A stretch of 64,000 nt of DNA from Deroplatys truncata (Eukaryota > Arthropoda > Insecta > Mantodea > Mantidae): positions 37,563,501 to 37,627,500 of the forward strand of contig CM060989.1 of assembly GCA_030765065.1 (NCBI GenBank), given 5' to 3'. A model generated the notes under the pieces. The model was not told where the DNA came from and did not search any database. It was given only the letters and a program-made list of their open reading frames with translations. Position numbers and translations under genes: made by a program. Of the stretch, positions 3,011-61,348 are shown in pieces; positions within the stretch are counted from its first letter, which is position 1; each line of letters begins with the position of its first letter.

Positions 3011-3085
3011 AGTTTCTCTATTACGTATAGTAAGTAGTGGAAGTATTGCATTCCACCCAAAATTTTGATGTCGAGATTTCATCGG

Positions 3086-3120
<35 letters not shown>

Positions 3121-3905
3121 TATGTGTGTGTGTGTTTTGAGGCCCCCTGAAGCCCCCAAAAAAAGTATTTTTAGAAAAATTTCGGCGCGCGCATATGGGC
3201 GTATGACTCTGAACAGTAAAACTCAAAATGTTAAGTAGGATAAATACCAAAGTTGGTATTTAGGTTCAGTACCGTCCAAAGATGCGACAAGCAGATTTTC
3301 AAGAAAATCCCCATACCGCAAGATACCCTTTACATGGAGCATTTTCCAAATTTCTGATTTTATAAAAAAAATATCTCTAATTTGGATTAAAACCATATAT
3401 ATTAAGGATATTTATATGAAAAATAAAATTCATATCGTTAATTTTCTGTAAATACCTTGAGAAGTCCATTTCATTCGGATGGAATGTGTATAACCTTGTA
3501 TAACTGGTAAATGTTAAGTGATAGATGAAAACGTACCAGACAAGAAATGCTCTTTAAAGCACACAATTTATTTTAAATAACTATTTTTGTGGAATCAGCC
3601 ATTTCCGAGATAATTCATTATTAATAGTTCGAATTATTCAATATTTAGCCATTCTTTTAAAGTCCTGATGATTTTAAGTTGTTTCTCGTGATGTTATGGA
3701 AATAGTGTGACATTTTAGAGTCCAGTTCAAAAACATTTAGCTATTCCTATTCCCTTTGTATCTGCAACGAAGTGTGTAATGCAGCTATTTCCGGAAAGGT
3801 TTATCTGATTAAAATGAAGTAGATAGGAAAGTAAGCTTGTGTAAGAATAACTTGTATAACTACTAATAAGCGTTTAGAGAGTAGAGAATATCATGTAAAT
3901 GTTTG
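3011..3905 (-). repeat. Rep1 copy, near full length
   Basis: Opens AGTTTCTCTATTACGTATAG and runs through the standard block order to 'gagaatatcatgtaaatg'. A (TA)n microsatellite at 3088-3116 is embedded next to 'tcatcggaaata', where most copies have none. Confidence 0.75.
3088..3116. repeat. (TA)n microsatellite
   Basis: Uninterrupted TA dinucleotides inside the Rep1 copy 3011-3905, followed by a TG-rich stretch (tatgtgtgtgtgtg). Confidence 0.95.
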
Positions 3906-4264: not shown

Positions 4265-5100
4265 TTTTTTTGATGTGTTACACTCACATGACTTTCTCCA
4301 CTCTTGTACAAACTATTTTTACAAACGCTTATTGTCCATATGCTTCATGTTAATCGAGATGTTAATCTTATTGCTAATTTTCTTGTAGATGCAAGGGGAA
4401 TTGGTAGGCTTTAAGCGATAGTCAAATATTTTAAGAGCTAGTTGCTAAGTGGAGCATTCCATTCTCTTTGCATATCCAGGACCAAAAAAAGTGAATAACG
4501 AATTTCCATTTGAGAAAAAGCATAAGTATTGGAAAGTTTAAGGGAATAACAAGCAATATCTCGAAAATGGTCCACTCAACAACAAAAATGTTTATGACAT
4601 AAATTGTGTATTTTTTGCGTAATAAAAGTTTGTGTATCTCATGATTTACCAGTTATGCAAAAGTCGTTCACAATGAAGAATACTTTTGGAGCCATTCCCA
4701 GAAAATTCAAGATATACATTTCATTTGTCATGAAAATATCTTAAACATATGATATTTTAATCAAAATCGTTAGAGCCATTTTTGAGAAAATTAAAATTTT
4801 CTAAAAATGTTCCATGTAAAGGGTAGTCTGGGGTGGGGGGATTTTCTTGAAAACCTTCGAGTCGCATCTCTGGAAGATACTGAACCTAAATACCAAGTTA
4901 TTGTTCGTTTCTGAGTTATGCTATTCACAGACAGACAGACAACACAGACACACATACACACACACACACGGACATGTTTCCAAAAATGCTTTTTTTGGAT
5001 TCAGGGGATCTCAAAACATATATTTCCGGTGAAATCTGGGTATCGAGTTTTTGGGTCGAATACAATACTTCCCCTACTTACTGTATGTAGTAGAGAAAGT
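4265..5100 (+). repeat. Rep1 copy bracketed by 44/45-bp direct repeats
   Basis: The + orientation unit starts with a T-run and TGATGTGTTACACTCACATG and ends GTAGTAGAGAAAGT at 5100. It includes the usual body and the AC/CAGA microsatellite (4925-4972). It is the only copy here with a long flanking duplication, so it defines the outer limits of a mobile unit (about 836 bp). Confidence 0.85.
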
Positions 5101-5145: not shown

Positions 5146-7196
5146 AGACAAAGAACATGAAAAGAAGTGAATCTCATTCAGGTCCCTTAGGCACACAATA
5201 ACAAATTAAACATAAAAAAGGGAGCTGTAGAATTAGTGATGAGTTAATCTTCCGGTTCATTCGGTAACAGCAGATGGTCTTGAGGCAGACGGCTTCGAAT
5301 CCTGGTGATATTACGTATGTGTATTGGTGTTTATCGAGGCAAAACATATAAAATTACGCAGGAAAAGGACAAGTTTCAAAAAGTTACTCCCTTCAATTCC
5401 TTGCATACCAATTTTAACATTTGGAGCTGTTTCAATGAAACTGATACCTAATTTGCAGCATACCTTTTAAACTACCTATGCATATTTTCAACCCTTGCAT
5501 ACGGATTCTGCACTGTTTATCCTATATGAATAAAACATTGATCATCGCGCTGTAGAACAACGCAAGAATTATAGGTTCCTAAACAACTTCCAAAAACTAC
5601 GCCATAACTAATTAACCGCTGCATAGAAGTCTACACCGTCTCACCGATTTAGCAAAACTTGATCATTTACGCTTTAAAACACAGAAAAAATTATAGGCTA
5701 CATTATTTTTTTTAAATAGCATCCTTATTTTTAAACTCCATGTACAGATCTAACTCTACATAACTCTACAGAAAGCTGCACACTTTACTGTAAAACACGG
5801 CGAAAGCTATAAGGTACCACTGAGAGTCCAGAAGTAATGTATGTCCATACCTTGTCACGATTCCATGCTTCAAATCATGAGAAACGGGGACAAAACTCGC
5901 TAGTTATGCAAAACTAAGGGTTGCGACTTAGAGGAATACCGAGAGCTTAAATGACATTCTAAAAGAAGTAATTTTTACAATTTATTTTATATTTATAAAA
6001 TTAATTTTCCATTACAAACATAAGCCTCCTTTCTATTCGATTTAGTTCAATGCAGACATCACAAGTGCAGATCATTTATTATAATTTTTAATATGAAAGA
6101 AAATTGGAGGAGATTTAAAACAAAAATATGTTTGAAACCTACAAATAATATAAAATACAACTAGGGCTCAGCGCAATAGACGCTAAAATACTTAAAACAA
6201 GCAGACAAATAGGCACTTCAACAAGTTCAAAATTAGGCATTATCAGTAATGATATGCATTGAAGTAGGCACAATCATTTATTCATTTACCACTTAAAACA
6301 CATTTTGGCATGACAGAACAGTATAGAAATATAAAATATCCATATACCATATAGTAAATGTATTAAATTCCACTATTCTTTTAATGAAGTGTGAACTGTA
6401 AACATATTTCTTTAAATTTGCACCCTTCAGTTATTATGTATTTTTATGGCACATCCTATTATTACCTTTTAAGTAATTCTTCTCTTGGATGCGTTTTGCA
6501 CTCCCACGATGGTCTATAATTATTATTGAGTCTGCATATATTATTTTTAAAGAGACTACTGTTGTCTTTACAATGAAATAAGGCTAGTTTTATTAGGTCA
6601 GTACTGTTTTTTCACTCACGTGGGAAGTAGAAAACAATAAAACCACTGTATTAATGAACAACGCGATCAGTAATACTAAAATGATGGATTTTCTTGTCGT
6701 AGACCAATAGTTCTTTAGAGTTGACCATTTACCGTACGCTTTATTGTGCTAAGTAGCCACTATTTTACTATTACACAAAACAAGGCAACTGTTGACATTA
6801 GTAAGGGAATGGCAGTATTGCAAACTTCCTCAGGCACGTTGTCAACAGTGGATTATGGCTGAGAGCGCGAAATATTAATTGAAATAGTAAGGTAAATCAC
6901 TTTAACAAATACCATTAACAAATAACCGCCAATAACAAAAATAATGAAATTACGATAGGTAAAAGCTTTGATAAAAAGCCATATTAGGCCTCTAAGCTAT
7001 GAAAAAGCATATCTTCAGATTACCTTCCTGTTTGGAGTACTTATATCTACAATATTTCAATAACCTTTATCATGTTTACGCATGTGTTCTAGAGATTCTT
7101 CACCCTTTCACATACTTTAACCTTGCCCAGAGAGTTAATATGTGCTCTGATTGTAATAAACCCTTAAGGATCGGCTTCACAGTTTAAATTTGTCGT
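5146..7196. other. Unannotated AT-rich stretch
   Basis: I see no coding potential, repeat similarity to the rest of the window, or RNA gene in this stretch. Short open frames only. Confidence 0.5.
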
Positions 7197-7468
7197 CCTC
7201 TGTGGTGTAGTGCTTACCGTGCTAGCCTCTAGTTCCCGAGGTCGCGGGTTCAAACCCGCGGAGGGCGTAAAGGTCCTTAGCATGGCTTCCTTTCGGAAGG
7301 GAAGTAATACCGGTGGTCCTGTGTCGTATATTTACGGCATGTAAAAGAACCTCAAGCCTGATAAAGAGGCCTCTGAGCAAAATTACCGGTCTTTCACGCC
7401 CAATATAGAATAGGACGTTAAGGACCACAGCAGTTAAAGAGCGTCCATAAATAAAACTCAATTTAATT
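7197..7468 (+). mobile_element. SINE-1, tRNA-derived retroposon
   Basis: The tRNA-like head at 7197-7268 has an A-box-like TGGTGTAGTGCTTACC, a B box GGGTTCAAACCC and a CCGCGG-type acceptor/T-arm pairing. A family-specific body follows ('ggaagggaagtaataccggtgg', 'gccatg/gcatgtaaaagaacctca', 'gcgtccataaataaaact') and an AT-rich tail. A second copy lies on the minus strand at 17100-17396, which shows that this is a dispersed SINE rather than a functional tRNA. Confidence 0.8.
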
Positions 7469-8255: not shown

Positions 8256-9088
8256 TCTGATGTGTTACACTCACATGACTTTCTCTGCTCTTGTACAAAC
8301 TATTTTTACAAACGCTTATTCTCCATATGCTTCATGTTAATTGAGGTGTTAATCTTATTATTAATTCTCTTGTAGATGCAAGGAGAATTGGTAGGCTTTA
8401 AGCGATAGTCAAATAGGTTGCTATGTGGAGTATTCCATTCTCTTTGTATTACCCGGACAAAAAAAATGAATAACGAATTCCCATTTGAGAAAAAGTATAA
8501 CTATTGGAAAATTAAAGGGAATAACAAGCAATATTTCGAAAATGGTTCACTCAACAACAAAAATGTATATGACATAAATTGTGTATTTTAACGCGATCTA
8601 CATTTTTTGTGTAGTAAAATTTTGTCTATCTCTTATGGTTTACCAGTTATGCAAAAGTCGTTCACAATGAAGAATACTTTTGGAGACATTCCCAGAAAAT
8701 TCCAGATATAAATTTTATTTGTCATGAAAGTATCTTAAACATATGATATTTTAATCAAAATCGTTAGAGCCATTTTTGAGAAAATTAAAATTTTCGAAAA
8801 ATGTTCCATGTAAAGGGTAATCTGGGGTGGGGGGATTTTCTTGAAAACCTTCGTGTCGCATCTCTGGAAGATACTGAACCTAAATACCAAGTTTGGTGTT
8901 TATCCGACTGTTCGTTTCTGACTTATGCTGTTCACAGATACACAGACACACACACACGGACATGTTTCCAAAAATGCTTTTTTTTGGATTCAGGGGGTCT
9001 CAAAACATATATTTCCAGTGAAATCTCGGTATCGAATTTTGGGTGTAATACAATACTCCCCCTACTTACTATACGTAGTAGAGAAAGT
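8256..9088 (+). repeat. Rep1 copy, full length (833 bp)
   Basis: Runs from TCTGATGTGTTACACTCAC to CGTAGTAGAGAAAGT. Flanked by TAAAAA on the left and AAAAAG on the right, so any target duplication is only a short A-run. It contains the open frame beginning MFHVKGNLGWGDF that recurs in many copies. Confidence 0.9.
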
Positions 9089-11443: not shown

Positions 11444-13190
11444 ATGTGATATATTCACATTACTTTCTGTGGCCTCGTCGTTTATTAGTGGGTATATAAA
11501 TGTTCTTACTACAACTTATCTTTATATTTACTAAATTTTAATACAAATAAACTTTTGCAAAAATAGTTATATTACACATTTCGTTATAGACACAAAGAGA
11601 ACAGTTATGCCAAATGTTTAAGAACTGGACGCTATGTGCTGGTCTTAAAACTCCATACTGTTTCAATGGAATCGCGAGAAACAACTGAATAATCGCAGAA
11701 CTTTAAAAGAATGGCTAAGGATTTAAAAATTCGAACCATTATTAACGGAAATATTGGAGATGGCTGATGCCACGAAAAAGGTATTTGAAATAAACTGTAT
11801 GTTTTAAAGAGATCTACATTTATTGTGTAGTACGTTTTCGTCTATCGCCCTACGTTTACCGGTTATACAAGGCTATACAAAATTCCTTCCGAATGAAGAG
11901 GACTTCAAAGGCCACTCGCAGAAAATTCAAGATATACATATTGTCATATACTAAATATCTTTAAGATATTTTATATTAAGATATTGTAGCGGTTCCTACG
12001 TGGTATCTCCCCCACGATGACGTGCCACTATGCGTCGAGAACCCCACTAAGTTGATGATGATGGACCCGTAGAGACATGATGGATGCTGTATTACGTACC
12101 TGTAGGTCGTCTTGATACCTGTACTCTCGTGATGTATCATGTAGTTCTCTTAGACTGGAATCTGATGATCGTATATCTGCATTCTCGTGTATGTGTAGTA
12201 TGTTGTAATTATTATTTTATAATTATACCACGGCTGCTGATTTTAAGTCGGAGAGCAGTTGTGTGTTGTCAGGGTCAGGTATGGAGAATGTTAAACTTAT
12301 CCATACCTGAAATACATGCGTATTCTGTTAACTATTTCACTTGTATTTTACATAAACCACATGTAGATATTCACAATTCATTATTAACTTTGTCATGTTA
12401 AAATATGTATAACTGGTAGACTTTAAATACGTAGTTTTAGTGTCTATTAGAGACGAACTTATACACTACATTCCTGCTCGAACACTGACAAGCTTCTGTT
12501 AGCGTTCCTTTCAACCGTTTTCTTAGCGTACGTATTTGAATTATAGGTATGTAACAATGTACCTGATTGGTGCTACTACCTATTAACAGTTTGTTACATA
12601 TACACACATATATATATATACATATATATATATATTTACGGACTTCCATTGTCTTAATTATGAATTCAAGGTTCGTTACATGCTTACGTAGATGCCACTG
12701 CATTTCTCGTAATTTTTATTACTGGTTACATAGCTAACAATGGTCTTTCCCTCTCATATCACATTTCATAGGTTATAACGTTATATACTTGTTCTCTACC
12801 ATGTGTATGTTATAAATATATGTGTTTTTAACACCCTCTTAATTATTATACCTGCAATATTAGCAAAACATACATAACACATAAAACTTAGAACAAAATA
12901 TTAAAGAAAGACATTATTAATGTGTTGGTGCTGCGCAGCTGTGAATTAGATATCTTATTACATTAATGAGTTATCGTACTAGTTTGTCCGTGGCTAGTAC
13001 TGTATGTTGCTTCAGTATTTTGATAAAACTCCTTATAGCCATATTTTAAAATATCAAAAAGGTATAAAAGTTTTCCAAGTAAAATGTATTTTGGGGTAGG
13101 GGAATTTTCTTAATATCTTCGTATCACATCCTTGGAAGATACTGAACTTAAATACCAAGTTTTTGAGTTATACTGTTACAGTTCAAGTAA
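11444..13190 (+). repeat. Rep1 copy split by LTR-A1
   Basis: The left part runs from GATGTGATATATTCACATTACTTTC to 'taagatat' at 11984. The body resumes after the LTR at 13015 with 'gtattttgataaaactcc', matching the uninterrupted 'gatattttaatcaaaatcg' of other copies. The join shows that the LTR landed in an existing Rep1 copy. Confidence 0.75.
11985..13014 (+). mobile_element. LTR-A1, solo LTR (about 1030 bp)
   Basis: Starts TGTAGCGGTTCC and ends TTGCTTCA (TG...CA). It is collinear over its whole length with 57246-58189, both containing 'tattattttataattat', 'tttaaatacgtagttttag', 'gacaagcttctgttagcgtt' and a (TA)n run. Flanking bases GATAT and GTATT form an imperfect duplication. No internal gag-pol sequence lies nearby, so it is interpreted as a solo LTR. 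The chosen strand is the shared orientation and is arbitrary with respect to transcription. Confidence 0.7.
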
Positions 13191-16947: not shown

Positions 16948-17590
16948 CTTTCTCATTTACGTGCTTAAAGTAAGTATAGGAAGTATTGTATTCCACGCAA
17001 AAAAATCCATACTGAGATTGTATCGGAAATACATGTTTTGAAACATTCTGAACCCCCCAAAAATATTTTTAGAAAAGATCTGCGCGCGCGTGTGTGTTTG
17101 TGTAAAATTAAGTTTTATTTATGGACGCTCTTTAACTACTGTGGTCCTTAGTGTCCCACTCTATATTGGGTGTGAAAGAACCGCAATTTTGCTCAGAGGC
17201 CTTTTTATCAGGCTTGAAGTTCTTTCACGTGCCGTAAATCTACGACACGGGACCACCGGCTTTACTTCCCTTCCGAAGGAAGCCATGCTTGGGATTTTGA
17301 CGCCCGAAAAAATCCATCGCCCTCCGCCGGATTTGAACCCGCGATCTCGGGAACTAGAGGCTAGCATGCTAACCACTACACCACGGAGGATGACATGTGT
17401 GTGTATGTGTGAACAGCATAACTCAAACACCAATGTCCAATAAATACCAAACTTGGTATTCATATTTAGAGCCCTTCCAAACATGTGCAACAAGGATTTT
17501 TAGAAACTCCCGCACCCAAAATTACTCTTTACATGCAAGGTTTTAGCGATTTTTTATTTTATCCAAAACGAGTCTAACGATTTTGATTAC
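16948..17590 (-). repeat. Rep1 copy split by SINE-1
   Basis: The head 'actttctcatttacgtgc' and 'aagtattgtattccacgc' run to the 'gcgcgcgcgtgtgtgtttgtg' microsatellite. The SINE-1 copy intervenes, then 'atgtgtgtgtatgtgtgaacagcataac' and the body continue to 'gattacaatgtcata'. Confidence 0.7.
17100..17396 (-). mobile_element. SINE-1, tRNA-derived, inserted in Rep1 microsatellite
   Basis: On the minus strand it opens with a tRNA-like head (TGGTGTAGTGGTTAGCATGC; B box GGGTTCAAATCC) and shares the full body and tail with 7197-7468. It sits in the TG microsatellite of a Rep1 copy. The A/B boxes are consistent with an internal RNA polymerase III promoter. Confidence 0.8.
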
Positions 17591-17653
17591 AATGTCATAT
17601 TACTTTCTCTACCACGTATATAGTAGGTAGAGAAAGTATTGCATTCCATTTTT
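17591..17653 (-). repeat. Rep1 head fragment
   Basis: TACTTTCTCTACCACGTATA through 'gcattccatt', cut off by the next copy starting at 17654. Confidence 0.7.
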
Positions 17654-18555
17654 ACTTTCTCTACTACGTATAGTATGTAGGGGAAGTATTGTATTCCACC
17701 CAAAAATTCGATACCGAGATTTCACCGGAAATACATGTTTTGAGACCCCCTGAATCCAAAAAAAGGCATTTTTGGAAACATGTCCGTGTGTTTGTCTGTG
17801 TGTCTGTCTGTCTGTGAACAGCATAACTCAGAAACGAACAGTCGGATAAACACCAAACTTGGTATTTAGGTTCAGTATCTTCCAGAGATGCGACACGAAG
17901 GTTTTCAAGAAAATCCTCCCACCCCAGATTACCCTTTACATGGAACATTTTTTGAAAATTTTAATTTTCTCAAAAATGGCTAACGATTATGATTAAAATA
18001 TCATATGTTTAAGATATTTGCATGACAAATAAAATGTATATCTTGAATTTTCTGGGAATGTCTCCACAAGTATTCTTCATTGTGAACGACTTTTGCATAA
18101 CTGGTAAACCATAAGAGATAGACAAAATTTTACTACACAACAAATGTAGATCGCGTTAAAATACACAATTTATGTCATATACATTTTCTTTGTTGAGTGA
18201 ACCATTTTCGATATATTGCTTGTTATTCCCTTAAATTTTGCAATACTTATTTTCTAAAATGGGAATTCGTTATTCATTTTTTTGTCTTGGATATGCAAAG
18301 AGTATTAATCTGTGGCAAAGAGAATGGTGCTGCACCCAGCAACCAGCTATTAAGAGATATGTATGTCCTTAAAGGCTACTGTATTTCCATATTGCCCTTG
18401 TAAATATATATTCCCCTTACATCTACAAGAAAATTAGCAATAAGATAGAGTCTGCAAATGTTTATCTCGATTAACATGAAGTAGATGGAGAATAAGCGTT
18501 TGTAAAAATAGTTTGTACAAGAGTAGAGAAAGTAATGTGAGTGTAACACATCAGA
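17654..18555 (-). repeat. Rep1 copy, full length (902 bp)
   Basis: Runs from ACTTTCTCTACTACGTATAG to GTGTAACACATCAGA. It belongs to the subfamily with an extra block near the 5' end ('gcaaagagaatggtgctgcacc', 'tactgtatttccatattgcc') also seen at 29234-30207 and 60401-61348. Confidence 0.9.
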
Positions 18556-28475: not shown

Positions 28476-30366
28476 ACCTTCTCTACTATATATGGTAAGT
28501 AGAGGAAGTACGTGTCGAGATTTCACCGGAAATATATGTTTTCAGCCCCCTGAATAAAAACAAAATATGGAAAAAGGTCCGCCCGCGCGTGTGTGTTTGT
28601 GTGTCTGTGAACAGCATAACTGAAAATTGAAAACTGGATAAATGCCAAAATTTTATTTAAGTTCAATATCTTTCAAAGATGCGACACGAAGATTTTCAAC
28701 AAAATCCCCTCAACTCCTAACTACCCTTTACATGGAACATTTTTCAAATCTTTTTATTTTTCTTAAAAATGACACTAACGATTTTGATTAAAGTATCATA
28801 CATTAAAAATATTTATATGATAAATAAAATGTATATCTGAAATGTACTGGGATTAGCTTGGGAGGTCCTGTTCATTCGGAAGGAATTTTGTATAATGTTG
28901 TAAAATGGTATATGTTAAGTGATAGACAAAAAATACTATACAAAAATACAGTTCGACTCTAATCACACAATTTATTTCAAATAACTTTTTTGTACCATAA
29001 GATATTTCTGAGATATCCATTATTAATGTTCGAGTTGTTCAATACTTGCGATCCTTTTAAGGTCCTCGATTTTCAGGTGTTTCTCGCGATTGCATGGAAA
29101 GAGTACGGAGTTTTAAGACCTGTGTACAGCGTCCAGTTCTTAAACATTTGACTAACGCCGTTTTGTATCTATAACAATATATGTAATGTAACTATTTCTG
29201 GAAGGGTTTATTGCGATTAAAATAGAAAAAAATTCTGAAGTGTTACACTCACATGACTTTCCCTACTCATGTGCAAACTATTTTTACAAACTCTTATTCT
29301 CCATCTATTTCATATTAATCGAGATAAACATTTGCAGAAACGATCGTTTGACATGCAAAGAGAATTACAATTTACACATAGCGACCAGTTTTAAAAATAT
29401 GTGACTATCGCCTAAGGGCTACTATGTTCCCCTTTGTTTTGTGTTTGCAAGGGCAATATAGAAATACAGTAGCCTTTAAGCATAGACATATCTCTTAATA
29501 ACTGGTTACTATGTTGCTATGTGCAGCAGCATTCTCTTTGTCACAGATTAATACTCTTTGCATATCCAAGACAAAAAACTGAATAACGAATTCCCATTTG
29601 AGAAAATAAGTATTGAAACAGTTAAGGGAATAACAAGCAATATCTCGAAAATGGCTCACTCAACAAAAAATGTATATGACATAAATAATGTATTTTAACG
29701 CAATCTACATTTTTTGTATAGTAAAAGTTTGTCTATCTCTTATGGTTTACCAGTTATGCAAAAGTCATTCACAATGAAGAATGCTTTTGGAGACATTCCC
29801 AGGAAATTCAAGATATACATTTTATTTGTCATGAAAATATCTTAAACATACGATATTTTAATCAAAATCGTTAGAGCCATTTTTGAGGAAATTAAAATTT
29901 TTGAAAAATGTTCCATGTAAAGAGTAATCTGGGGTGGGGGGATTTTCTTGAAAACATTCGTGTCGCATCTCTGGAAGATACTGAACCTGAATACCAAGTT
30001 TGGTGTTTATCCGACTGTTCGTTTCTGAGTTATGCTGCTCACAGACACACAGGCAGACGCACACAGACACACACACGGACATGTTTCCAAAAATGCTTTT
30101 TTTGGATTCAGGGGGTCTCAAAACATATATTTCCGGTGAAATCTCGGTATCGAATTTTTGGGTGGAATACAATACTTCCCCTACTTACTATACGTAGTAG
30201 AGAAAGTAATAAGCTTTCGTAAGAATAATTTGCATATTCACTAGCAAACGATCAGAATTTTTTTACTCAGGAGCTCTCGGAACATTATTTCCAGTGAAAG
30301 TACGATATCGAATTACAAATATAATGCTTTCTCTTGCTGCTATAGGTAGCTGACACAGAAAGTAAA
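28476..30366 (-). repeat. Rep1 copy (old) split by a younger Rep1 copy
   Basis: Head ACCTTCTCTACTATATATGG at 28476; body to 'attaaaatagaaaaaaa' at 29233. After the inserted + copy the host resumes at 30208 with 'aataagctttcgtaagaa'. In other copies (for example near 46930) 'agatagaaaaataagcttta' is contiguous. A further + orientation 3' end fragment is at about 30254-30366. Confidence 0.8.
29234..30207 (+). repeat. Rep1 copy, full length (974 bp), inserted in Rep1
   Basis: TCTGAAGTGTTACACTCACATG through CGTAGTAGAGAAAGT. It belongs to the subfamily with the extra 5' block. The insertion point is the A-run of an opposite-strand Rep1 copy. Only A residues could be duplicated at the target. Confidence 0.9.
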
Positions 30367-30837: not shown

Positions 30838-32124
30838 CGAGGGCTGATTGATAAGTCAGTGACTTTTTAAAGAAAATAACTTCTTTTTTCAAAGAATAAA
30901 TTTTATTTCACAACATAGTCTCCTTTCAATTCAATACACTTGTCCAAGTTTTCTCCATTTTCTTTGGCCCTTCCAAAAATATGATTTTTCGAAGTCTGTA
31001 AAGTATGAGGTTGTTTCTGTCATGATGTGTTCACTGGACGTGAATTTCTTCCCAGCAAGCCAATTTTTCAAGTTTGCGAAAGGGAAGAAGTCGCTCGGAG
31101 CCAAATCCGGAGAATATGGTGGGTGAGGTAGCAGTTCGTAGCCCAATTCCAGAAATATTGCGATGACAATAACTGACTTGTGTTTTGGTGCATTATTCTG
31201 GTGAAAGAGAACATTTTTATTTACCAAATGGGTCGTTTGTTTAACGATTCCTTGTGAAACTGATCCAGCACTGCGGCATAATATGAACCTGTGATCGCTT
31301 TACCTTTTTACAGGCACTGAATGTCTATCACCCCTTGTGAATCCCAAAAGGCAGCTGCTGTGATTTTTTCTGCCGACGGAATGGTTTTCGCTTTCTTTTG
31401 AGCAGGTTCGCCGAAGGAAATCCACTGCTTGGATTGTTTGGTTTCAGGTTGATAGTAATGGATTCAAGTTTCATCAACCGTGATATAACGCCGCAAAAAC
31501 TCATTTGGGTTGAGCTGGAACATGTTCAAACATCCCTGTGAAATGGTCATACGATTCCGCTTGTTCTCAACTGTGAGCAGTCGCGGCACCCATCTTGCTG
31601 ACAGCTTTCTCATTCCCAAAAATTTGTGCAGAGTGTTATACACCTGTTCACTCGAGATGTTTACGCTTTTGGCTATCTCACGGATTTTCACTCGGCGGTC
31701 TTCCAACACAATATCGTGAACTTTGTTCACCATTTCTTCTGTTGTGTCCTCAACTGGCCGTCCTGTTGCACAGCATCTCTTGTGTTCGAACGGTTACATC
31801 GAAGTTCGGTGAAACACTTGTGAACCAAACCATGTGATGGAGCATAGTCCCCATAATACTTATTCAGCTTTTCTTCTGTTTCCTTTACCGTCTTACCACG
31901 CAAAAAGTAGTGTTTTATCAGAACACGAAATTCACTTTTCTCCATTTTCTACAAAGCTACACACATCTGCTTATTTTAGACGCTCTCAACAATGTTCTAA
32001 GAAACAAATGACGAAGAATTTCTGTGATTATACACAGAATAGATGTAAGACTTGGTTGCAAACAAGAAACTGTGATTAGAACGCTATCCCTCTTCAAAGT
32101 CTTGGACTTATCAATCCGTCCTCG
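30838..32124 (-). mobile_element. MAR2: inactivated mariner element, full length (1287 bp)
   Basis: The ends are inverted: CGAGGGCTGATTGATAAGTC at 30838 and, on the other strand at 32124, CGAGGACGGATTGATAAGTC. The right flank has TA; the left TA has become TG. The minus strand reads a mariner transposase in pieces: N-terminal MEKSEFRVLIKHYFLRGKT with YYGDYAPSHGLVHKCFTEL (31945-31727), then EDRRVKIREIAKSV, the linker RKLSARWVPRLLT and ITVDET (31733-31464), and finally HQNNAPKHKS and YSPDLAPSDFFPF (31227-30931). The second catalytic Asp is replaced by Asn (HQNNAP), and several frameshifts separate the blocks. Non-functional. Confidence 0.92.
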
Positions 32125-40940: not shown

Positions 40941-41475
40941 ACTTTTTCTACTACGTATAGTAAGTAGGGGAAGTATTGCATTCCACCCAAAAATTCGATA
41001 CCGAGATTTCACCGGAAATACATGTTTTAAGACTCCCTGAATCCAAAAACAAGCATTTTTGGAAACATGTCCGTGTGTGTGTGTGTGTCTGCGTCTCTGT
41101 GTGCCTGTGAACAGCATAACTCAGAAACGAACAGTCGGATAAACACCAAACTTGGTATTTAGGTTCAGTATCTTCCAGTGATGCGACACGAAGGTTTTCA
41201 AGAAAATCCCCCCACCCCAGACTACCCTTTACATGGAACATTTTTCGAAAAATTTTAATTTTCTCAAAAATGGCTCTAACGACTTTGATTAAAATATCAT
41301 ACGTTTAAGGTATTTTCATGACAAATGAAATGTATATCTCGAATTTTCTGGGAATGTCTCCAAAAGTGTTCTTCATTCTGAACGACTTTTGCATAACTGG
41401 TACACCATAAGAGATAGACAAAATGTTACTGCACAAAAAATGTAGATCGCGTTACAATACACAATTTATGTCATA
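40941..41475 (-). repeat. Rep1 array unit a, truncated
   Basis: ACTTTTTCTACTACGTATAG to 'caatttatgtcatat'; lacks the last ~300 bp of the unit. First member of the head-to-tail array inserted in the T-run of the host copy. Confidence 0.85.
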
Positions 41476-41482
41476 TATTTTT

Positions 41483-42016
41483 ACTTTCTCTACTACGTAT
41501 AGTAAGTAGGGGAAGTATTGCATTCCACCCAAAAATTCGATACCGAGATTTCACCGGAAATACATGTTTTGAGACCTCCTGAATCCAAAAAAAGCATTTT
41601 TGGAAACATGTCCGTGTGTGTGTCTGTGTGTGTGTGTGTGTCTGTGTGTGTGTGTGTCTGTGTGTGTGTGTGTCTGTGTGACTGTGAACAGCATAACTCA
41701 AAAATGAACATTCGGATAAGCACCAAACTTGGTATTTAGGTTCAGTATCTTCCAGAGATGCGACACGAAGGTTTTCAAGAAAATCCCCCCACCCCAGACT
41801 ACCCTTTACATGGAAGATTTTTCGAAAATTTTAATTTTCTCAAAAATGACTCTAACGATTTTGATGAAAATATCATATGTTTAAGATAATGTCATGAGAA
41901 ATGAAATGTATATCTCGAATTTTCTGGGAATGTCTCCAAAAGTATTCTTCCTTGTGAACGACTTTTGCATAACTGGTAAACCATAAGAGATAGACAAAAT
42001 GTTACTACACAAAAAA
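41483..42016 (-). repeat. Rep1 array unit b, first part
   Basis: Head ACTTTCTCTACTACGTATAG through 'gttactacacaaaaaa', containing the longest GTGTCTGT microsatellite (41610-41682). Interrupted by the foldback at 42017 and resumed at 42502-42597 ('gtttagtgaaccgttttc'). Confidence 0.85.
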
Positions 42017-42501
42017 TCTGATGTGTTACACTCACATGACTTTCTCTACTCTTGTACAATCTAATTTTACAAACGCCTATTCTCCATATGCTTCATGTTA
42101 ATCGAGATATCGAGATGTCAATCTTATTGCTAATTTTCTTGTAGTTGCAAGGTGAATATGGTAGCTTTTAAGCGATAGTCAAATATTTTAACGCTGGTTG
42201 CTATGTGGCGCATTCCATTCTCTTTGCATGTCCAGGACATAAAAAAAATGAATAACGTATTTGAGAAGAAGTATACGTATTGGAAAATTTAAGGAAATAA
42301 CAAGCAATATCTCGAAAACGGTTCACTCAACAAAAGAAATGTATATGACATAAGTTGTGTATTTTAACGCGATCTACAAGAAAATTAGCAATAAGATTGA
42401 CATCTCGATATCTCGATTAACATGAAGCATATGGAGAATAAGCGTTTGTAAAATTAGATTGTAGAAGAGTAGAGAAATTCATGTGAGTGTAACACATCAG
42501 A
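42017..42501. repeat. Foldback: 128-bp inverted arms with 229-bp loop
   Basis: The left arm 42017-42144 and right arm 42374-42501 are inverted copies of the Rep1 start (TCTGATGTG...CTTGTAG). I count only 3 mismatches and no indels over 128 positions. Both arms share private variants such as 'cgagatatcgagatgtcaat' and 'caatctaatttt'. The loop continues the left arm's Rep1 sequence to 'aacgcgat'. The structure could extrude as a cruciform or long hairpin. Confidence 0.9.
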
Positions 42502-42597
42502 TTTTTTTTGTTTAGTGAACCGTTTTCTAGATATTGCTTTTTATTCCCTTACATTTTCCAATACTTACACTTTTTCTCAAATTCGTTACTCATTTTT
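42502..42597 (-). repeat. Rep1 array unit b, remainder
   Basis: 'tttagtgaaccgttttctag' to 'ctcaaattcgttactc', truncated by unit c. Confidence 0.75.
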
Positions 42598-43443
42598 ACT
42601 TTCTCTACTACGTATAGTAAGTAGGGGAAGTATTGTATTCCACCCAAAAATTCCATACCGAGATTTCACCGGAAATACATGTATTGAGACTCCCTGAATC
42701 CCAAAAAAGCATTTTTGGAAACATGTCCGTGTGTGTGTGTCTGTGTGTCTGTGAACAGCACAACTCAGAAACGAACAGTCGGATAAACACCAAACTTGGT
42801 ATTTAGGTTCAGTATCTTCCAGAGATGCGACACGAAGGTTTTCAAGAAAATCCCCCCACCCCAGACTACCCTTTACATGGAACATTTTTCGAAAAGTTTA
42901 ATTTTCTCAAAAATGGCTCTAACGATTTTGATTAAAATATCATACGTTTAAGGTATTTTCATGACAAATGAAATGTATATCTCGAATTTTCTGGGAATGT
43001 CTCCAAAAGTATTCTTCATTCTGAACGACTTTTGCATAACTGGTAAACCATAAGAGATAGACAAAATGTTACTGCACAAAAAATGTAGATCGCGTTAAAA
43101 TACACAATTTATAACATATACATTTTTTTGTTGCGTGAACCGTTTTCGAGATATTGCTTGTTATTCCCTTAAATTTTCCAATGCTTATACTTTTTCTCAA
43201 ATTCGTTATTCATTTTTTTATGTCCTGGACATGCAAAGAGAATGAAATGCGTCACATAGCAACCAGCGCTTAGAATATTTGACTATCGCTTAAAACTACC
43301 ATATTCCCCTTGCATCTACAAGAAAATTAGCAATAAGATTGACATCTGGATTTCTCGATTAACATGAAACATATGGAGAATAAGTGTTTGTAAAAATAGT
43401 TTGCACAAGAGTAGAGAAAGTCATGTGAGTGTAACACATCAGA
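42598..43443 (-). repeat. Rep1 array unit c, full length (846 bp)
   Basis: ACTTTCTCTACTACGTATAG to GTGTAACACATCAGA. Nearly identical to unit d by eye. Separated from unit d by a T-run only. Confidence 0.92.
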
Positions 43444-43449
43444 TTTTTT

Positions 43450-44319
43450 CTTTCTCTACTACGTATAGTAAGTAGGGGAAGTATTGTATTCCACCCAAAA
43501 ATTCGATACCGAGATTTCACCGGAAATACATGTTTTGAGACTCCCTGAATCCAAAAAAAGCATTTTTGGAAACATGTCCGTGTGTGTGTGTGTGTCTGTG
43601 TCTGTGTCTGTGTGTCTGTGTGTCTGTGAACAGCATAACTCAGAAACGAACAGTCGGATAAACACCAAACTTGGTATTTAGGTTCAGTATCTTCCAGAGA
43701 TGCGACACGAAGGTTCTCAAGAAAATCCCCCCACCCCAGACTACCCTTTACATGGAACATTTTTCGAAAATTTTAATTTTCTCAAAAATGGCTCTAACGA
43801 CTTTGATTAAAATATCATACGTTTAAGGTATTTTCATGACAAATGAAATGTATATCTCGAATTTTCTGGGAATGTCTCCAAAAGTATTCTTCATTCTGAA
43901 CGACTTTTGCATAACTGGTAAACCATAAGAGATAGACAAGATGTTACTGCACAAAAAATTTAGATCGCGTTAAAATACACAATTTATGTCATATACATTT
44001 TTTTTTGTTGCGTGAACCGTTTTCGAGATATTGCTTGTTATTCCCTTAAATTTCCAATGCTTATACTTTTTCTCAAATTCGTTATTCATTTTTTTATATC
44101 CTGGACATGCAAAGAGAATGAAATGCGCCACATAGCAACCAGCGCTTAGAATATTTGACTATCGCTTAAAACTACCATATTCCCCTTGCATCTACAAGAA
44201 AATTACCAATAAGATTGACATCTCGATATCTCGATTAACATGAAACATATGGAGAATAAGCGTTTGTAAAAATAGTTTGTACAAGAGTAGAGAAAGTCAT
44301 GTGAGTGTAACACATCAGA
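43450..44319 (-). repeat. Rep1 array unit d, full length (870 bp)
   Basis: CTTTCTCTACTACGTATAG to GTGTAACACATCAGA. Differs from unit c mainly in microsatellite length and scattered bases. The sequence following it, GTTTTTAGTTAT, resumes the host copy. Confidence 0.92.
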
Positions 44320-49437: not shown

Positions 49438-49547
49438 CTAGTGAATTTCGTTGTTCATCTGTTGACAGTTAATCACCAATGTTTCAGCCTTTTGGACGCT
49501 AAGTTGTTATGTAACAGTCGTTTGAGTGAGGTGATGTGAGTGTTTTT

Positions 49548-50585
49548 ATGAAAATGGACAAAATCGAGTATCGAGCTGTTATTAAATATTTGTTTTTGAA
49601 AGGCAATTTGTCTACGCAAATCAAAGATGAGTTGGATTCTGTGTATGGGGACTCTGCACCATCATTTACCACAGTGAAATTTTGGGCAGCTAAATTTAAA
49701 CGCGGCCGTAAGAGCTTGGGAGCGGGACGTCCAAAAATTGCAACTACCGACGAAAACATTGCCAAAGTTCACCAAATTGTGCTAGATGACCGCAGAATTA
49801 AAATGAGAGAGATAGCAGAGGCTATGAACATGATAAAAGAACTTATTTGTCACATATTAAATCAGCATTTAGACATGAGAAAGCTGTCCGCGCGTTGGGT
49901 GCCGCGCTTGCTCACGTTTGACCAAAAACGTGTTCGAATGAACATTTCCAACGCTCTGTTGACGCAGTTTAGGCGCAATAAATCCGAGTTTTGGCGCCGA
50001 TTAATTTCTGTAGATGAAACTTGGATAGACCACTATATGCCCGAAACAAAAATACAGTCCAAACAGTGGACTGCAAAGGGGGAACCGGCTCCAAAAAAAG
50101 CAAAAACTGTTTTTTCGGCTGGGAAAGTGATGGCGACTGTTTTTTGGGATAGTCATGGAGTTATTTTAATCGATTATCTTCAAAAAGGAAAAACCATTAC
50201 AGGAGCATACTACGCATCATTACCTGACAAGCTGAAGGCAGAACTTGCGGAAAAACGGCCACATTTGCAGAAAAAGAAAACCCCGTTTCACCGAGACAAC
50301 GCACCGTCTCACACCTCAGCGGTTGCAATGGCGAAAATCCTCGAATTACGGTTTGAGCTGCTTGACCATCCGCCTTACTCACCAGATCTAGCCCCAAGCG
50401 ACTTATTTTTGTTCCTTCATCTGAAAATTGCGCTCGGAGGACAGAGATTTTCATCAAATGAAGAGGCAATCACCTTCGTGAACAATTATTTTGCAGAGAA
50501 AAACGCCGAGTACTATTTGAACGGGTTACAGAGATGGGAGCATCGCTGGGGGAAGTGTGTAGAGTTACAAGGAAAACTATGTTGA
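49548..50585 (+). CDS. Mariner transposase (DD34D), intact reading frame
   Basis: 345 codons from the first ATG (a second ATG, giving 343, follows two codons later at 49554). The enzyme cuts and pastes its own element at TA sites in the nucleus. Residues ~5-50 and ~70-111 are the two helix-turn-helix DNA-binding units (YLFLKGNLSTQIKDEL; DDRRIKMREIAEAM). The linker is RWVPRLLT (116-123). Catalytic Asp are D156 (SVDETW), D250 (HRDNAPSH) and D285 (YSPDLAPSD), with 34 residues between the last two. Two oddities: the inter-HTH linker reads SLGAGRPK and lacks the acidic/Arg-Ser residues I expect before GRP, and the C-terminus ends QGKLC. One frame over the DNA spells YVEK-stop, as in MAR1, which implies a late +1 frameshift. 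Catalysis may survive, but activity is untested. Confidence 0.95.
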   Translation: MKMDKIEYRAVIKYLFLKGNLSTQIKDELDSVYGDSAPSFTTVKFWAAKFKRGRKSLGAGRPKIATTDENIAKVHQIVLDDRRIKMREIAEAMNMIKELICHILNQHLDMRKLSARWVPRLLTFDQKRVRMNISNALLTQFRRNKSEFWRRLISVDETWIDHYMPETKIQSKQWTAKGEPAPKKAKTVFSAGKVMATVFWDSHGVILIDYLQKGKTITGAYYASLPDKLKAELAEKRPHLQKKKTPFHRDNAPSHTSAVAMAKILELRFELLDHPPYSPDLAPSDLFLFLHLKIALGGQRFSSNEEAITFVNNYFAEKNAEYYLNGLQRWEHRWGKCVELQGKLC

Positions 50586-57245: not shown

Positions 57246-58189
57246 TGTAGCGGCTCCTCTTTGGTAGGCCCCCACTACGTTCATGATGATGGATGCTGTG
57301 TTACGTACCTGTAGGTCTCTTGATGCCCGAACTCTCGTGACGTTTCACGACGTTCTAGGAAACTGGAAACTGATGATCGTGTATCTGTATTCTTGTGTGT
57401 GTGTTAGTATGCTGTAATTATTATTTTATAATTATGCCACAGCTGCTGTATTTGTGTCGGAGAGCACTTGTGTCTTGTCAGGGTTGGGTATGGAGAATGT
57501 TAAAATATATTTGCACACACGTATTCTGTTAATTATTTCACTTGTATTTTAGATAAACCACATATGATATTCACAATTCACTATTACATTTGTTATGTTA
57601 AAATATGTATAACTGGAAGACTTTAAATACGTAGTTTTAGCTTCCATTTAGAGACGAGCTACTTTAGACACTACTTCCTACTCGAAGACTGACAAGCTTC
57701 TGTTAGCGTTCCCTTCAACCGTTCTTTTTAACGTGCGTATTTGAATTATAGACATGTATCAATGTACCTGATTGGTGCTACTGTCCAATAAGACTTTATA
57801 TTACACACACATATATATATATATATGTTTACAGACTTCCATCATATCAATTATGAATCCAAGGTTCGCTACATGCTTACGTAGAAATATTTCTGTAGTT
57901 TTATATTACTGGTTATATTGTTAACAATGGCCTTTCCCCCTCATATTATATTTTATACGTTATAATGTTATGTACTTGTTCTTTAAAATGTATACATTAT
58001 GACTATATGTGCTTTAACATCTATACGTATAATATTATCAAAGAAAATACATAACACGTAAAACTTATAACTAAATATTAAAGAAAGAAACCATTTATTA
58101 ATGTGTTGATGCTGAGAAGCTGTGGATTAGATACCCTATTACATTAATGAGTTATTGTATTAGCTTGTCCGTGTCTAGTTGTTGCTTCA
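57246..58189 (+). mobile_element. LTR-A2, solo LTR (944 bp)
   Basis: TGTAGCGGCTCC start and GTTGCTTCA end; flanks CTCTA and CTATA (4 of 5 match). Collinear with LTR-A1 at 11985-13014 in the same orientation. No internal sequence. Confidence 0.75.
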
Positions 58190-58770
58190 CTATATAAACC
58201 TTTGAGTAGAAGTGTTGGAGAGGATGAGATGAATACAGCAATTTTAACCTCATGAGAATGGAAGAGCCTTTGATGCTTAAACTCTGAGGTTGATAATGAT
58301 AAAATTATACACAGAGCAAGTCCTACATTTTCTGCATAGAAACTTTTGGTCCTTGCTGCACGAGTGTCCCACCGCCCTGAAGTCTGTACATTTCCAGTTT
58401 AGAACGTCAGTTCTGCAGCAGGTTAAATGCTGCGTCGACAAGTGGCTTAAAGGGGTAGAAAATGTGGAGGTAACTGGAGGCACATCCTACTCTGACGGTG
58501 TCGTCATTATATGAGAACGGGAAAAGTTGGCAGAGAGCTAACGAGGAGAGTCGTACTGTGAAATTCAACACAAGTCGGTGCAACTTGATGTTACGTCATT
58601 GTTACGGACTCCAAATAACCCTGCAGTTTGTAAACGTTATATCTCTACAGTCTTTCATGACAGCCAAATCCCAGGGGCTAACGGCTGTCCATAAATATAT
58701 GCGCTCACTACTGCATCGCATTTCCTCAAAACACAATGTTACGGCAACTTTCGTAGTTAAGAGGAAAAAG
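58190..58770. other. Unannotated stretch
   Basis: Short overlapping frames on both strands at 58277-58514 without recognisable content. Confidence 0.3.
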
Positions 58771-58845: not shown

Positions 58846-59586
58846 TACTCTCTCTTTCACGTACACAGTAAATAGAGAGGGTATTGCATTCCACCCAAAA
58901 ATTCGATACCGAGATTTTCGCGGAAATACATGTTTTGAGGCACCCATTTTTAGAAAAGGCACTCGTGTCTATGTATGCTGTCTCTATCTGTGAACAGCAT
59001 AACTCAAAAAGGAAATTTCGGATAAGTACCAAACTTGGTATACAAGTTCAGTGTCATCCAAAGTTGTGACACGAATATTTTCAAGAAAGCCCCCCCCAAC
59101 CCAAACTACTTTTTAAATGGAACATATTTTGAAACTTTTTATTTTCTAAAAATGGCTCCAACGATTTTGATTAAAATGCCATATATTAAAGATATTTACT
59201 TGACAAATAAAATGCATATCTTGAATTTTCTGGAAATAACGTGTAACGTTCTCTTCATTCGGAAAGAATCTTATATAATGGTGTATAACCAGTAAACGTT
59301 AAGCGATAGACGAAAACGTACTACACAAGAAATGTAGATCACTTTAAAACACAATTTATTTCAAATAAGCTTTTTGTGGCATAAGCCAATTCTGAGATAT
59401 CAGTTATTAAACATTTGACTATCGCTGTTCTCTTTGTGTGTATAACGAATGTTATGTAGCTATTTATGCAAAGGTTTATTCGGGTTAAGCTGTAGTAGAT
59501 ATAAAAAGAAGCTTTAGTAAGAATAGTTTGTGTACCTAGTAACAAAGATAGAGGCTGGGACAGTCAAGTGAATGTATCACATCAGA
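58846..59586 (-). repeat. Rep1 copy
   Basis: Head ACTCTCTCTTTCACGTACAC, 'gcattccacccaaaaattcg', interior to 'gtatcacatcaga'. A + oriented start fragment precedes it at 58775-58830 ('gatcttctctacccac'). Confidence 0.8.
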
Positions 59587-60400: not shown

Positions 60401-61348
60401 TCTGATGTGTTACACTCACATGACTTTCTCTACTCTTGTACAAACTATTTTTACAAACTCTTATTCTCCATCTATTTCATATTAATCGAGATAAACATTT
60501 GCAGAAACGATCTTTTGACATGCAAATAGAATTACATTTTACACATAGCGATCAGTTCTAAAAATATTTGACTATTGCTTAAAGCGTACTATGTTCCCCT
60601 TGTTTTGTATTTACAAGGGCAATATAGAAATACAGTAGCCTTTAAGCATAGACCTATCTGTTAATAGCTGGTTGCTAGGTGCAGCACCATTCTCTTTGCC
60701 ACAGATTAAAACTCATTGCATATCCAAGACAAAAAAATGAATAACGAATTCCCATTAGAGAAAATAAGTATTGAAAAATTTAAGGGAATAACAAGCAATA
60801 TCTCGAAAATGGTTCCCTCAACAAAAAAAAATGTATATGACATAAATTGTGTATTTTAAGCGATCTACATTTTTTGTGTAGTAAAATTTTGTCTATATCT
60901 TATGGTTTACCAGTTATGCAAAAGTCGTTCACAATGAAGAATACTTTTGGAGACATTCCCAGAAAATTCAAGACATACATTTTATTTGTCATGAAAATAT
61001 CTTAAACATATGATATTTTAATCAAAATCGTTAGAGCCAATTTTTAGAAAATTAAAATTTTGGAAAAAATGTTCCATGTAAAGGATAATCTGGGGTGGGG
61101 GAACTTTCTTGAAAGCCTTTGTGTCGTATCTCTGGAAGATACCAAACCTAAATACCAAGTTTGGTGTTTATCTGACTGTTCGTTTCTGAGTTATGCTGTT
61201 CACAGACACACACACACGGACATGTTTCCAAAAATACTTTTTTTGGATTCAGGGGGTCTCAAAACATATATTTCCGGTGAAATCTCGGTATCGAATTTTT
61301 GGGTGGAATGCAATACTTCCCCTTCTTACTATACGTAGTAGAGAAAGT
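60401..61348 (+). repeat. Rep1 copy, full length (948 bp)
   Basis: TCTGATGTGTTACACTCAC to CGTAGTAGAGAAAGT, left flank GTAAAAA, right flank AAAAGAA. Extra-block subfamily as at 17654 and 29234. Confidence 0.9.

Follow-up and report, generated by a model that had tools for sequence, protein, structure and literature searches.

At positions 8256-9088, on the minus strand, lies an 833 bp full copy (c1) of a repeat interpreted here as a non-autonomous Helentron-associated element. The window, i.e. the whole stretch of DNA analysed, comprises 64,000 nucleotides (C15:37563501-37627500) of a host assembly of 4.29 Gb in 818 contigs. Along the minus strand the element opens, after a T-run, with an imperfect palindrome whose ACTTTCTCTACT forms the 5' terminus. 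A/T-rich sequence comes next, then a GT/CT microsatellite whose length is not constant, then a conserved body and a segment of varying length that leads to the 3' end, which is made up of AGTAGAGAAAGT, a 5-bp hairpin, CAGA and a second T-run.

The initial annotation had described a 12-mer that is terminal at one end and about 22 nt in at the other, a hairpin at the terminus and an internal GTCT/GTGT-type microsatellite, and each of these features was located. The 12-mer at 9077-9088 (minus strand) is exact and terminal, preceded by TTTTT and embedded in the imperfect palindrome of approximately 34 nt at 9055-9088 (minus strand), which also contains the hairpin TACTATACGTAGTA at 9067-9080. Its inverted counterpart at 8278-8289 (plus strand) carries one mismatch in c1 and is situated 22 nt from the 3' end, and the microsatellite (approximately 8933-8958, minus strand), downstream of the 5' end, differs in length among copies. 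With up to one mismatch allowed, the 12-mer occurred 28 times in the window, against an expectation of 0.37. The polarity of the annotation was however reversed, with the 5' and 3' ends swapped: under the Helentron convention the 9088 end is the 5' end and the 8256 end the 3' end. The hairpin that it had named as the 3' hairpin thus sits at the wrong end, the 3' hairpin being ATGTG-TTACACT-CACAT at 8260-8276 (minus strand; stem of at least 5 bp), followed by the T-run.

Hairpin strength is the weakest point of the end structure. A stem of at least 5 bp was predicted in 12 of 17 3' ends, with a mean z of -0.6, barely above shuffled sequences, and for the 5' palindrome the gain in stability over shuffles was moderate (mean z -1.7, with nine of the 28 ends below -2). 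The ends read T-run|ACTTTC and CATCAGA|T-run, on which grounds a canonical Helitron (5'-TC, 3'-CTRR, a single 3' hairpin and insertion between A and T) was rejected.

Family copies and target sites

A total of 55 profile matches to the family covered 20,512 bp, or 32%, of the window; seven copies are full and resemble one another, and many others are diverged or partial. In addition to c1 and the full copies of the array discussed below, full copies were placed at 4271-5100 (c2, minus strand), 17654-18555 (c3, plus strand; profile match), 29234-30207 (c4, minus strand), the last of these inside an older copy, and 60401-61348 (c5, minus strand; profile match). Older copies seated in the T-run of another copy were present at 3011-3901 and 58847-59586 (both plus strand), the former having a degenerate 3' end such that its profile match stops at model position 846 and its end was extrapolated to 3913. 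When pieces of one copy were left unmerged, 19 of the 55 matches retained only the 5' (9088-type) end, eight only the other end, nine both and 19 neither.

Genome-wide, the exact 34-nt 5' end of the family was counted 123,665 times (61,749 + 61,916), with no occurrence of the reversed control pattern. Three such exact ends fall in the window, compared with approximately 1.8 predicted from the genome average; the 5' end of c1 is one base off the exact 34-mer. If the number of bp per exact end were uniform, extrapolation from three counts would put the family at about a fifth of the genome. Scans of the viral_contigs and genome_contigs sets with the family retrieved two loci, L001 and L002, of which L001 was discarded as a chance match of 26 bp at 88%.

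Other repeats were also noted in the window. A pair of approximately 0.9 kb (12077-13018 and 57286-58193) is 81% identical, and a shorter repeat, which we take to be SINE-like, is present in two copies at 7191-7464 and 17105-17395 (83%), the second of which splits a family copy into two pieces at the microsatellite. The segment 18577-18773 was considered as a long target site duplication (TSD) of 17396-17600 and rejected, the identity between them (74%) not exceeding that to other copies.

An insertion preference for A/T runs, claimed in the initial annotation, is borne out by T-rich flanks: at least four of the five flanking bases are T at 24 of 28 5' ends and 11 of 17 3' ends in the window, against a window background of 5.6%. 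Thirty loci were fetched from the genome, one of which lacked a recognisable end, one being the window copy (L023) and two (L051 and L052) having identical flanks; in the 29 with both ends, 25 of the 5' flanks and 28 of the 3' flanks had at least four T in five. These 29 copies share no more than six bases between their flanks, all T-rich (TTTTT, TTATT, ATTTTT). Paralogous empty sites were available for 29234-30207, 3011-3901 and 58847-59586, and in each the relatives align through the junction with no duplication beyond T-rich bases, though at 63-80% identity single junction bases are uncertain. No TSD of fixed length was found at the three window empty sites or in 29 of the 30 fetched copies; consistent TSDs of that kind were one of the two findings that, according to the initial annotation, would have refuted its reading. 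With flanks this rich in T, a few of the terminal Ts may be either element sequence or duplicated target.

The flanks were also compared in 15 pairs: ten from copies whose two ends could both be placed, one from a tandem pair treated as a unit, and four from copies in which an end is uncertain or missing. Of these, c2 alone rose above the 99% level of the null, with a direct duplication of approximately 45 bp flanking 4271-5100, an exception to the no-TSD rule that the earlier reading had not mentioned.

The autonomous partner and the proposed mode of transposition

The Helitron Rep domain (PF14214) was matched at least 152 times in the host assembly, and by manual count at least 30 among the matches listed have an open frame of 1,000 aa or longer. 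Twelve of these long-frame loci, chosen for frames exceeding 2,100 aa, were examined, six being read whole and six only in short stretches at the predicted ends. All 12 carry the family 5' end upstream and the family 3' end downstream of the frame, so that the search for an autonomous partner suggested in the initial annotation yielded Rep/helicase loci with both family termini. In the six loci read whole, the partner measures 9,786-10,598 bp, counted from the last of the 5' ends through to the 3' end, the latter lying 937-938 bp past the frame in five and 1,197 bp past it in the sixth (H5). Compared with these six autonomous elements, the first 652 bp of c1 are 88.0-92.9% identical and the last 31 bp 93.5%. 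Most of what precedes this 31-bp end in the final part of the short element is not matched colinearly by any of the autonomous copies examined, and hence the short element is not a pure deletion derivative of them.

Partner domains were tested on a single ORF, a frame of 2,324 aa without stops at L053:1930-8901. Pfam matches were obtained to Helitron_like_N (E 1.2e-27), PIF1 (E 1.9e-28, with its 2B domain) and DUF6570 (E 1.1e-16), and no DDE transposase or reverse transcriptase was reported for this ORF. No endonuclease was reported at E ≤ 0.01 in a scan of the full-length ORF; when the C-terminal 240 aa were scanned alone, Exo_endo_phos_2 was matched at E 1.8e-6, scoring 28.3 bits where the cut-off is 27.4, and a PDB sequence search with this region returned no significant match (best E 0.41). 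The protein also has the motifs RGSPHEH (VEFQMRGSPHEH, with RG at residue 1142), GDFN and SDH, 12 matches to a charged repeat spaced 21 residues apart and an N-terminal match to Herpes_teg_N, presumably a peptidase family; frame length differs between partner copies. In PMC4067079, a C-terminal endonuclease and a serine in RG(S)PHxH, where Helitrons have leucine, are given as marks of Helentrons.

A second class of Rep loci (L003-L010) gave higher PF14214 scores and frames of 215-849 aa, with stops in seven of the eight. None of the eight matched the family at E 1e-10, a weak control given flanks of only about 1.5 kb, and these loci probably represent another Helitron lineage. In the window itself, no Rep or helicase was detected in the 40 frames scanned with Pfam out of 66 of at least 85 aa, and no PF14214 match among those listed falls within it. 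The window does hold an uninterrupted mariner frame of 351 aa at 49530-50582 (plus strand) with Transposase_1 and Mos1 HTH domains, and two frames at 30934-31793 (minus strand) with sub-cut-off matches to DDE_3 (E 0.0083) and HTH_Tnp_Tc3_2 (E 0.00023), which may be the decayed remains of a Tc1-like element.

Read in the opposite direction, from 8256 to 9088, the repeat could be viewed as a SINE/LINE- or Penelope-like retroelement with a constant 3' end, a short A-tail, 5' truncation, arrays and variable TSDs. The A-run at the 9088 end, the excess of matches keeping only that end (19, versus eight for the other) and the TSD-like duplication of about 45 bp at c2 fit such a reading. Against it, the three window empty sites lack a TSD, the 29 genome copies share T-rich bases only, and the two-ended partner encodes Rep, helicase and endonuclease domains with no reverse transcriptase domain reported; the partner protein refutes this reading, which has next to no probability. 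A miniature inverted-repeat element driven by a DDE transposase would likewise be short and non-coding with inverted repeats, but the inverted repeats here are asymmetric, there is no fixed TSD and the family ends occur at all 12 long-frame Helitron-Rep loci examined, making this origin vanishingly improbable.

Another alternative is a member of the Helitron2 group proper, lacking an endonuclease and thus not a Helentron. Helitron2 elements are described in PMC3627910 as having a 5' repeat that is part of a hairpin and lies 0-2 bp from the terminus, a 3' repeat 20-30 bp before the end and ahead of a hairpin, and insertion after TTTT, a description that suits the present termini equally well; the endonuclease call is also a narrow one (28.3 versus 27.4 bits). 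Nonetheless, the C-terminal Exo_endo_phos_2 match does exceed the Pfam cut-off and is accompanied by GDFN, SDH and RGSPHEH, and we consider this placement highly unlikely.

With its ends, its choice of targets, the absence of any fixed TSD, a partner protein encoded between the same ends and its abundance all observed, the repeat is almost certainly a HINE, that is, a non-autonomous Helentron (Helitron2-type) rolling-circle element moved in trans by an autonomous Helentron of the same genome. The Helentron link that the initial annotation had put forward by inference is accordingly supported by a direct sequence link to a Rep/helicase partner, with only the assignment of the ends reversed. As for the mechanism, which we infer from the protein domains together with published Helitron models and not from observed transposition, the Rep nuclease would nick at the 5' end, T-run|ACTTTCTCTACT palindrome, and the helicase would displace one strand; termination at the subterminal inverted repeat and hairpin would then release this strand, which would be joined into a T-rich target with no fixed duplication. 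The loci with long Rep/helicase frames and the short element, whose exact ends number more than 120,000 in the same large genome, constitute a matched autonomous/non-autonomous pair, a good starting point for a Helentron transposition assay.

Head-to-tail arrays and self-insertion

A tandem head-to-tail array, of the kind noted initially, was found at 40941-44319 (plus strand), with junctions at T-runs. The array consists of a unit at 40941-41482 (model positions 1-530), a unit at 41483-42597 (model 1-632) and full copies at 42598-43443 and 43449-44319. The units starting at 40941, 42598 and 43449 are 96.6-97.7% identical to one another and that starting at 41483 is 94.4-95.1% identical to them; no remainder of either truncated unit was found beyond 40941-44319. 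Inserted in the second unit at 42017-42501 is an inverted pair of family 3' ends, each pointing outward, where the host copy lacks approximately 38 bp between two A/T runs; this could have arisen by fold-back of a 3' end.

The element model contains two T8 runs, at 532-539 and 629-636. One or two 1-632 units lie ahead of the element at five of the six partner loci read whole, and at seven of the 12 loci (three by BLAST, four by eye) the sequence past the partner 3' end continues as model 633 onward, so that the partner appears seated inside a copy of the short element. Exact self-junctions numbered 17,490 (5') and 10,606 (3') genome-wide, with none for the reversed controls; as the 5' and 3' patterns were unequal in length and stringency, the ratio of these counts is uninterpretable. 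Pairing was sampled with 99 of 100 listed 5' junctions against 62 of 100 listed 3' junctions in one stretch of C1, and 31 of the 99 had a same-strand 3' partner 0.6-12.5 kb downstream, at a distance of one copy-length in 13 cases, compared with a mean of 1.6 and a maximum of 8 in 200 shifted controls. This excess indicates that self-insertion makes arrays, at least in part; the other 68 lacked an exact 3' partner and may have a diverged or missing remainder.

New copies would, on this basis, insert into the family's own T8 runs and split the resident copy into a 1-632 unit on their upstream side and a 633-858 remainder on their downstream side. Helitron tandem arrays are attributed to bypass of the terminator in the published view (PMC4067079), and such bypass may also have occurred here, notably at the full-to-full junction 43443/43449, whilst self-insertion explains head-to-tail arrays without it. 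Mobilisation of composites from an outer 5' end is suggested by loci such as H9, where the 1-632 unit found upstream is bordered on its outer side by a different flank and nothing of the remainder follows the 3' end. We tentatively propose, at somewhat less than even confidence, a self-targeting Helentron whose T8 hot spots generate arrays of the form (1-632)n-[full copy]-(633-858)n, with composites remobilised from outer 5' to inner 3' end and a satellite-like, self-nesting share of the 4.3-Gb genome. Thousands of self-junctions also amount to natural pairs of filled and empty sites, which may help to tell which of the Ts are the element's own.

Comparison with known systems

The HINEs and Helentrons described from mite, Culex and Drosophila (Thomas et al. 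2014, PMC4067079) are like the present family in their palindromic subterminal inverted repeats (subTIRs) of 12-15 bp, 3' palindrome and terminal Ts, in their T-rich target without a TSD, and in the microsatellite or tandem repeats of some copies; their partners likewise encode Rep, a PIF1 helicase and a C-terminal Exo_endo_phos_2, with the serine in RG(S)PHxH. Differences are that the 3' subTIR lies 22 nt from the end here and 38-60 in the mite HINE, that the ORF here has a block of 21-aa repeats and an N-terminal Herpes_teg_N, that the part before the 31-bp 3' end is absent from the autonomous copies examined, and that identity to the partner is 88-93% and not above 95%.

Drosophila DINE-1/INE-1 (Yang and Barbash 2008, PMC2374699) is similar in having a subTIR at or near the 5' end, an internal 3' subTIR with a stem-loop a few nt after it, a GTCY-rich microsatellite in the 5' block and a TT preference in T-rich sequence, but its subTIR sequence is another one and there is no significant identity. 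The Drosophila INE-1 primer printed in PMC5624886 did not match the family significantly, 147 of 2,000 shuffles being as good. The DINE-1 core does resemble the family by eye, but no homology to DINE-1 is claimed, as the similarity to the primer was not significant.

Chlamydomonas Helitron2 (Bao and Jurka 2013, PMC3627910) shares asymmetric terminal inverted repeats, hairpins at both ends and TTTT insertion, and differs in that the partner here has an endonuclease. In Chlamydomonas, short Helitron-1N families have no TSD (one exception in 200), whereas CRe-1/2/3 often have TSDs, some of 44 or 50 bp and so comparable to the duplication of about 45 bp at c2; the over-represented end is the 5' end here, in the window, and the 3' end in CRe-1/2/3. 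The lepidopteran Hel-2/MITE01 (PMC4344730) is also short, with a subterminal inverted repeat, a 3' hairpin and a CTGT microsatellite, but has 5'-TC and 3'-CTRR ends and inserts between A and T, neither of which was seen here.

Searches of the open literature, with subscription journals and repeat databases outside their scope, covered the end sequences as well as Helentron arrays, protein domains and genome size, and none of the titles listed dealt with this element or family. On the features tested, the sequences place the element as a putative member of the Helentron/HINE group, the endonuclease assignment being narrow. The family is new and its kind is known, and in this genome the element is very abundant and often inserted into itself.
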